A program made the position numbers and the translations under genes. DNA of 44,310 nt, taken from positions 1 to 44,310 of the forward strand of contig JAFAXE010000161.1 of the NCBI GenBank assembly GCA_019241305.1. The letters are read 5' to 3'. Below are positions 3,602-44,310 of the stretch, piece after piece. The number at the start of each line of letters is the position of its first letter. Within the stretch, counting starts at the first letter, position 1. Origin of the DNA: Vulcanimicrobiota bacterium. Lineage in GTDB: Bacteria > Vulcanimicrobiota > Vulcanimicrobiia > Vulcanimicrobiales > Vulcanimicrobiaceae. Under the pieces are notes generated by a model. The model was given only the letters and a program-made list of their open reading frames with translations, searched no databases and had not been told where the DNA came from.

Positions 3602-3646
3602 GCGAGGCGGGGCTACGTTTCATTGAGCAAGCTCGGACCGACGAGC
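3602..3646 (+). repeat. Dispersed intergenic repeat, half-copy
   Basis: These 45 bases match the reverse complement of 43006-43050 at 42 of 45 positions. The core reads CGTTTCATTGAGCAAGCTC. The partner lies inside a palindromic element between atpD and atpC. Here only one arm plus about 23 interior bases are present, so this looks like a truncated copy. It sits between convergent genes and overlaps no recognised protein. Confidence 0.85.
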
Positions 3647-42438: not shown

Positions 42439-42855
42439 TTAGTGTGAAGCGAGCGCGATGCGGGCGTTCGCAAAATCGATCGCGGATTGCTCCCGCGCGT
42501 ACTCGGCGCTCTGTGGCGTCAGCCCGCGCTGACGCTCCTCGGCTGCCTGTAACTCTTTGCGGGCCACATCGACGTCGATTTCCTCACGACGGAGTGCCGC
42601 GTCGGTCAGGACGGTAACGCGGTCCGGGAGCGCCTGCAAAAAGCCTTCGCTCGTTGCGAATTCGAGCCGCTTCGTCTCACCTGCGGCGACCACGTTGGCG
42701 CGAAGAATCCCGGGACGCAGCGCCGTGAGGAACGGCGCATGCGACGCGAGGATGCCCTCTTCGCCTTCCGTGCCAACGCCGATGACGAGCTCAGCATCGC
42801 CTTCGAACGCGACCTGCGTCGGCGTGATGAGTTTGAATGGTACGGTTTTCGCCAT
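42439..42855 (-). CDS. atpC: ATP synthase epsilon subunit
   Basis: This 138-residue epsilon subunit couples the rotor to the catalytic head and can inhibit ATP hydrolysis. The N-terminal beta-barrel includes LITPTQVAFEGDAELVIGVGTEGEEGILASHAPFLTAL. The C-terminal two-helix domain (about residues 90-138) is intact. The ATG at 42855 has no Shine-Dalgarno. The start lies downstream of an unusual 333-bp gap after atpD, and codons 2-7 (through the first base of codon 7) are perfectly complementary to a segment in that gap. It converges on the DegT gene with five bases between stops. Confidence 0.96.
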   Translation of the reverse strand: MAKTVPFKLITPTQVAFEGDAELVIGVGTEGEEGILASHAPFLTALRPGILRANVVAAGETKRLEFATSEGFLQALPDRVTVLTDAALRREEIDVDVARKELQAAEERQRGLTPQSAEYAREQSAIDFANARIALASH

Positions 42856-43149
42856 TTACAGAATGCTCAGCGCCGGTATGCAGGTGCGAAATATCCGGCG
42901 AGCACCGCAAGCCGGGGCGACATTCCATCTCGCAACCGCTCGTCGCTCGCCGTCCGGGCTCGCTCCTGGCTGCTCCGCCTCCTCGCTCTCACCGTCCGTG
43001 GTTACGCTCGTCGGTCGGAGCTTGCTCAATGAAACGTCGCCCCGCCTTGCGGCGCTAGCGTCGCTTCGGATTTGACAGCAAAGACCGTCACTGACATTCA
43101 TATCAGAGCCGAACTCGTCGCCATTCTTGTGAAGCGAAAACCGTACCAT
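42837..43149 (-). promoter_or_regulatory. Candidate atpC-masking long-range RNA duplex
   Basis: In the atpD-atpC transcript, the segment from 43149 to 43134 reads AUGGUACGGUUUUCGC. It is a perfect 16-bp complement of 42852-42837, which are atpC codons 2-7 (through the first base of codon 7). Beyond a small internal loop that contains the AUG, bases 43122-43130 can pair with 42858-42865 (ACA/UGU, a bulge, then GAAUG/CAUUC). The whole would enclose about 256 bases and trap the start codon between helices. This is read from sequence; no folding energy was calculated. Confidence 0.55.
42902..43055. repeat. Palindromic MITE/REPIN-like element with 27-bp inverted arms
   Basis: Arm 42902-42928 matches the reverse complement of 43029-43055 at 23 of 27 positions; its first bases read GCACCGCAAG. 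The 100-bp interior is GC-rich and asymmetric. The right arm and interior (43006-43050) recur at 3602-3646. No transposase is present, and no clear target duplication flanks it. It would form a large hairpin in the transcript. Confidence 0.75.
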
Positions 43150-43181
43150 CGGTGTGAAGGGACTTGCGTGGAATGACACCG
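43150..43181 (-). terminator. Small hairpin just after atpD
   Basis: CGGTGT at 43150-43155 and ACACCG at 43176-43181 give a six-pair stem with a 20-base loop, eight bases past the atpD stop. There is no T-run, so it more likely stabilises or punctuates the transcript than terminates it. It abuts the segment complementary to atpC. Confidence 0.35.
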
Positions 43182-43188
43182 TTTGCAT

Positions 43189-44310
<1,122 letters not shown>

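Follow-up and report, generated by a model that had tools for sequence, protein, structure and literature searches.

The window (the whole 44,310 nt stretch of DNA analysed) comes from a genome in 227 contigs that is 91.5 % complete. It contains the 3′ part of atpD and, downstream on the same strand, a complete atpC (Table 1). The named relatives used for comparison are Candidatus Eremiobacterota genomes. In 27 of the 29 relatives compared at this junction, none of which belongs to the genus of the source genome, the gap between atpD and atpC is −8 to 10 nt, and in the source genome it is 333 nt. The long gap is therefore an insertion, and it exists because a hairpin element (core at 42914–43042) has been inserted. 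A leader conserved for atpC was rejected as an explanation, as the relatives have almost no atpD-atpC spacer in which it could lie. The two remaining relatives carry other insertions here. The 843 nt found in G015 (L012) include a long open frame that is apparently a gene. The 110 nt in G016 (L010) are a different repeat-like sequence, parts of which weakly match other places in G016 as well as the source genome; this insertion was read through for inverted arms and none was seen.

The reading frame of the spacer runs from TAGATG, at the end of atpD, to TAAATG, where atpC begins. A first stop at precisely this point has a probability of 0.001, and one anywhere in the last seven codons 0.009, both figures being post hoc. 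The frame was rejected as a real gene, as it has no Pfam match and, unlike atpD and atpC, a negative codon log-odds in its own frame. A direct duplication of the atpC start on its upstream side (MQTVSF.../MAKTVPF...) was also considered and is not significant (P 0.09).

Upstream of the inserted core lies a 16 nt arm that is the exact reverse complement of atpC codons 2–7 (ending at the first base of codon 7), as a sequence-only reading of the window had reported. The two arms are the sole perfect inverted repeat of ≥14 nt with a spacer of ≤500 nt in the window. Inverted repeats of ≥16 nt occurred once in 20 simulated windows matched to the real one in dinucleotide make-up, i.e. ~0.05 per window, and a chance origin of the match was rejected on this basis, in agreement with that reading. 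The relatives have no such complementarity at atpD-atpC, which that reading had named as grounds for abandoning its interpretation; given their near-zero gap, the downstream arm is old sequence and the upstream arm is new. In the minimum-free-energy fold the arms form an 18 bp stem that consists of the 16 exact pairs and two G-U pairs. An internal loop, in which the A and U of the atpC AUG lie, separates it from a predicted 6 bp stem (AGAATG/CATTCT), so that the eight further pairs reported around the start codon are the two G-U pairs and this stem. Folding of a 401 nt region and of its shuffled versions, a comparison that had been proposed with the original observation, gave −184.3 kcal/mol versus −148.5 (sd 5.9), z=−6.0. 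However, the arms are 281 nt apart with the hairpin element between them, which the sequence-only reading had missed, and much of the folding energy of the region stems from this element.

Table 1. Features of the atpD-atpC junction (positions in the window)
Feature	Position	Strand	Basis and remarks
atpD (ATP synthase beta), 3′ part	43189–44310	−	Pfam PF00006, E 2e-73; TAG stop 43191–43189
Inserted spacer, whole	42856–43188	−	Single open frame, 110 codons, TAG-ATG to TAA-ATG
Upstream arm (U), new copy, ATGGTACGGTTTTCGC	43134–43149	−	Exact reverse complement of 42837–42852; missing in relatives
6 bp stem beside the arms	43122–43127 (5′ side), 42860–42865 (3′ side)	−	Predicted fold
11 bp outer-stem extension of the element	43046–43056 (5′ side), 42901–42911 (3′ side)	−	Predicted fold
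Core of the dispersed hairpin element	42914–43042	−	Model R1, 144.9 bits, E 4.9e-28
GGA hexaloop 1 (ACGGAC; closing pairs ACC/GGT)	42994–42999	−	Fold; loop GGA in 105/108 aligned matches
GGA loop 2 (CGGAC; closing pairs GCC/GGC)	42952–42956	−	Fold; loop GGA in 89/108 aligned matches
atpC (ATP synthase epsilon)	42439–42855	−	Pfam PF02823, E 2.8e-19; ATG 42855–42853
Downstream arm (U′), atpC codons 2–7, old sequence	42837–42852	−	Homologous atpC starts in 29 relatives

When the spacer was searched against its own genome, 21 further matches were found, all restricted to its middle part. The feature between atpD and atpC is one copy of a dispersed family of structured elements, with a core of ~129 nt that is common to the aligned copies and flanks that vary from copy to copy; the 11 bp outer-stem extension is not common to other copies. 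Alignment A1 contains 16 copies, and the core model, R1, has 129 positions. The source genome has about 26 copies (27 R1 matches at E ≤0.1), and of the 43 Eremiobacterota genomes (the class) searched with R1, 23 have matches at E ≤0.001. The 25 genomes taken from the rest of the phylum gave no match at E ≤1e-5, which also supports the specificity of R1. Elsewhere in the window, a 45 nt fragment (3602–3646, plus strand) shares 93 % identity with the initial portion of the element.

The consensus fold of A1 has 35 pairs, 23 of them with changes on both sides. Among 108 distinct aligned matches, standard pairs account for 94.7 % of pair cells versus 63.0 % in shuffles and two-sided changes are seen in 35/35 consensus pairs, a signal that is lost when the partners are slid. 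Though this alignment was fitted to the structure, the margin of covariation is very large. In the outermost helix, all 15 pairs have changed on both sides and 93.9 % of cells are paired. G-U cells are about twice as frequent as A-C cells (147 versus 71), and the modelled strand is therefore favoured as the one that folds. This strongly covarying family has apparently not been described before.

No Rfam family scored above its threshold in a search with the elements. The nearest, TwoAYGGAY (RF01731), reached 32.6 bits at best, below its gathering score of 43, and its model gave three matches at E ≤0.1 over the 43 genomes, all of them R1 elements. Several copies can be aligned with the TwoAYGGAY model over its full length, and both have two hairpins with GGA loops, tandem G-A pairs in a stem and a poorly conserved external stem. 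Tandem G-A pairs, a described feature of TwoAYGGAY (PMC4333381), were found in A1 by inspection as C-GA-C-GA-GC opposite GC-GA-G-GA-G. Loop 1 of the element is often AYGGAY and often shortened to AGGAY, and loop 2 is varied. However, the second loop is less strict than that of TwoAYGGAY, and the element has many dispersed copies per genome and is found in a different phylum. It is not filed as a member of TwoAYGGAY.

CsrA is the proposed binding partner of TwoAYGGAY (PMC4333381), and the element shares with the CsrA/RsmA-binding hairpins of the CsrB and RsmZ type its GGA hairpin loops, with two sites per element. Its first hairpin resembles CsrA/RsmA sites (ANGGAN hexaloop or CAGGAUG; site definition from PMC7652899), and the element may bind CsrA. 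In contrast to the CsrB/RsmZ type, the copies are not gathered in one small RNA but spread over intergenic spacers, where they occur in either orientation. The source genome has a csrA gene (G000:C153:36556–36708, E 1.4e-22), as do 33 of the 43 genomes overall, including all genomes with ≥4 elements (P 0.008, uncorrected for phylogeny).

Placement of the copies, which rests on mechanical gene calls, shows 54 between convergent genes, 45 between co-directional genes (18 sense, 27 antisense) and two between divergent genes; divergent promoters are avoided. Nine of 11 close pairs of elements are inverted and face outward. This is the pattern of REP repeats (PMC3733652), and like REP/BIME repeats the element is extragenic and palindromic, lies near gene 3′ ends and forms inverted pairs. 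It is possible, though on balance doubtful, that the family is a REP/BIME-like selfish or architectural DNA repeat, or a 3′-end hairpin acting in messenger stability or termination, with the atpC arm a neutral by-product that has no effect on expression. However, the core is ~130 nt, not 20–40, and contains an internal multiloop, and copies number in the tens and not the hundreds. The conserved GGA loops and the excess of G-U over A-C point to one folded strand, against a DNA repeat. A search for the Y1 (RAYT) transposase (PF01797) in the source genome, within its 91.5 % completeness, gave no match and mobilization by RAYT was rejected accordingly; no invariant GTAG, one of the two REP end tags (GTAG or CGTC), was seen in the 16 copies of A1. 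Moreover, different species, and even different genera, have some element sites in orthologous positions, so that copies can be old.

Several individual sites were noted. In the source genome, a second copy (C64:4743–4868; L144:1501–1626) lies near a contig end, 26 nt past an apparent atpH and on the opposite strand, and at least two copies are therefore located among the atp genes of this genome. G020 has an element in the atpG-atpD spacer, antisense (L163:1201–1326), and G022, from another genus, has one at the same position by flank similarity (L128), with both flanks resembling those of G020. Judged by flank similarity on one side, elements beside apparent nuoE/nuoF genes may recur in three genera, represented by the source genome (C204, L137), G013 (C183, L208) and G022 (C256, L213). 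The signal recognition particle RNA gene of the source genome has a copy nearby (L079:444–542), as does a 6S RNA match in G039 (L161:940–1122), and others are inside tRNA clusters (L040 and L041). Inverted pairs of elements are found beside similar enoyl-CoA hydratase-like gene starts in contigs C109 and C13 of the source genome (L084/L085). Their arms differ from each other and yet are self-complementary, and these may be a duplicated locus or strain variants.

Inverted arms are not confined to atpC. Seven of 23 testable copies in the source genome (C71, C216, which is the atpC copy, C109, C153, C13, C149 and C46) have unique inverted flanks that exceed 99 % of mismatched controls. The arm of C71 has 20 nt exact within ~55 nt of matching flank and lies between two permease-like genes of the livH/livM type, not at a start, and the arm of C109 is 16 nt. 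Over all genomes, 18 of 132 copies lie beyond the 99th percentile of the controls, some of these (G042, G045) due to other repeats. General targeting of start codons, hinted at by the first flank listings, was excluded once genes had been placed. Where genes could be placed, the unique arms are mostly away from start codons, and the overlap with atpC therefore follows from the insertion site.

These data also bear on the suggestion, made with the original observation, that the arms are an assembly artefact, namely a chimeric join at a repeat that produced inverted arms. The assembly has 227 contigs and several copies are at contig ends, which would fit such a join. However, both genes beside the spacer are intact, comparable arms recur at further loci as well as in G006 and G014, and the linkers contain indels and divergence not expected of a chimera. 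Because the pattern recurs in this way, we regard an artefact as very improbable. The other suggestion, a plain inverted duplication, comes nearer to the likely origin of the upstream arm, though here the copied arm would extend the stem of an inserted element.

Orthologous copies provide an indication of how such arms may arise. In pairs such as G039/G038 and G037/G039 the core is conserved and the outer stem has been rewritten on both sides, often with changes that span several neighbouring pairs together. This is as predicted by template switching, which has been described for RNA stems, with one flank copied into the other (PMC8794818), and likewise for quasipalindromes in E. coli (PMC7202029). 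In quasipalindromes, reverse-complement copies create or repair perfect stems and give multi-base compensatory changes (PMC8794818), and the arms seen here are alike in this. They differ in that the stem of a repeat element has been extended into coding sequence, and in that we infer the event without reconstruction on a tree.

As the simplest account, we propose that, after the hairpin element was inserted between atpD and atpC, it promoted a short template switch during replication, which would have written a reverse-complement copy of atpC codons 2–7 into the upstream flank. The copied arm would extend the outer stem over the atpC start. In the mRNA this stem may hinder initiation at atpC, and ribosomes arriving from atpD might open it, possibly via the 110-codon open spacer. 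We assign this account as a whole a probability of roughly 0.6. For naked RNA at 37 °C, opening the atpC start is predicted to cost 14.1 kcal/mol without the insertion and 27.5 in its presence, a figure that falls to 16.8 when the arm is scrambled, versus 10 to 24 in the relatives; judged from these energies, an effect of the stem on atpC is likely. On the other side, the linkers between the arms and the core are far less complementary than the 16 nt arm, which implies either more than one event or selective retention of the outer part. Perfect stems would likewise be expected under selection on RNA structure.

A structure at this type of junction has a reported parallel. Dallmann and Dunn (1994) are reported to have described a structure in the E. 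coli uncDC mRNA that is opened by passing ribosomes. In both cases a structure in the junction mRNA would be expected to limit epsilon synthesis unless it is translated through. In the source genome, however, the predicted structure comes from a repeat element that was inserted, together with a copy of the atpC start in inverted orientation.

This parallel, the burial of the atpC start in the predicted fold and the frame that connects the atpD stop with the atpC start would all suit a selected switch, in which the arm would have arisen, or been retained, for its ability to sequester the atpC start, with epsilon synthesis tied to translation of atpD or to a factor such as CsrA. One version, drawn by analogy, is that CsrA bound to the GGA loops might clamp the stem shut, a mode of action described for RsmA at the SD/anti-SD hairpin of the psl leader (PMC7652899); the csrA gene of the source genome and the conserved GGA hairpin loops are compatible with this. 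However, the arrangement is absent from all 29 relatives compared, the unique arms of other copies are mostly clear of start codons, and co-directional copies are antisense (27) at least as often as sense (18). We consider a selected switch unlikely. A broader scheme, in which class-wide CsrA-binding hairpins would lengthen their outer stems by copying adjacent DNA and the atpDC copy would be a CsrA- or translation-controlled epsilon switch that closes the atpC start, appears more speculative still and has little probability. The earlier proposal of a structure that tunes epsilon translation thus holds in part. The stem exists, the atpC start is predicted to be buried in it, and its opening by translation from atpD is plausible. 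However, the structure represents a single copy of a dispersed element and not a dedicated atpC leader.

What began as an odd match at one gene leads to a well-supported family of structured elements that has apparently not been described before, in an uncultured lineage. The family offers natural material on how long perfect stems originate and are maintained, whether by template switching or by selection, and a testable case of Csr-type hairpins beyond the Gammaproteobacteria. The placing of a hairpin into the atpD-atpC junction also amounts to a natural experiment on ATP synthase.
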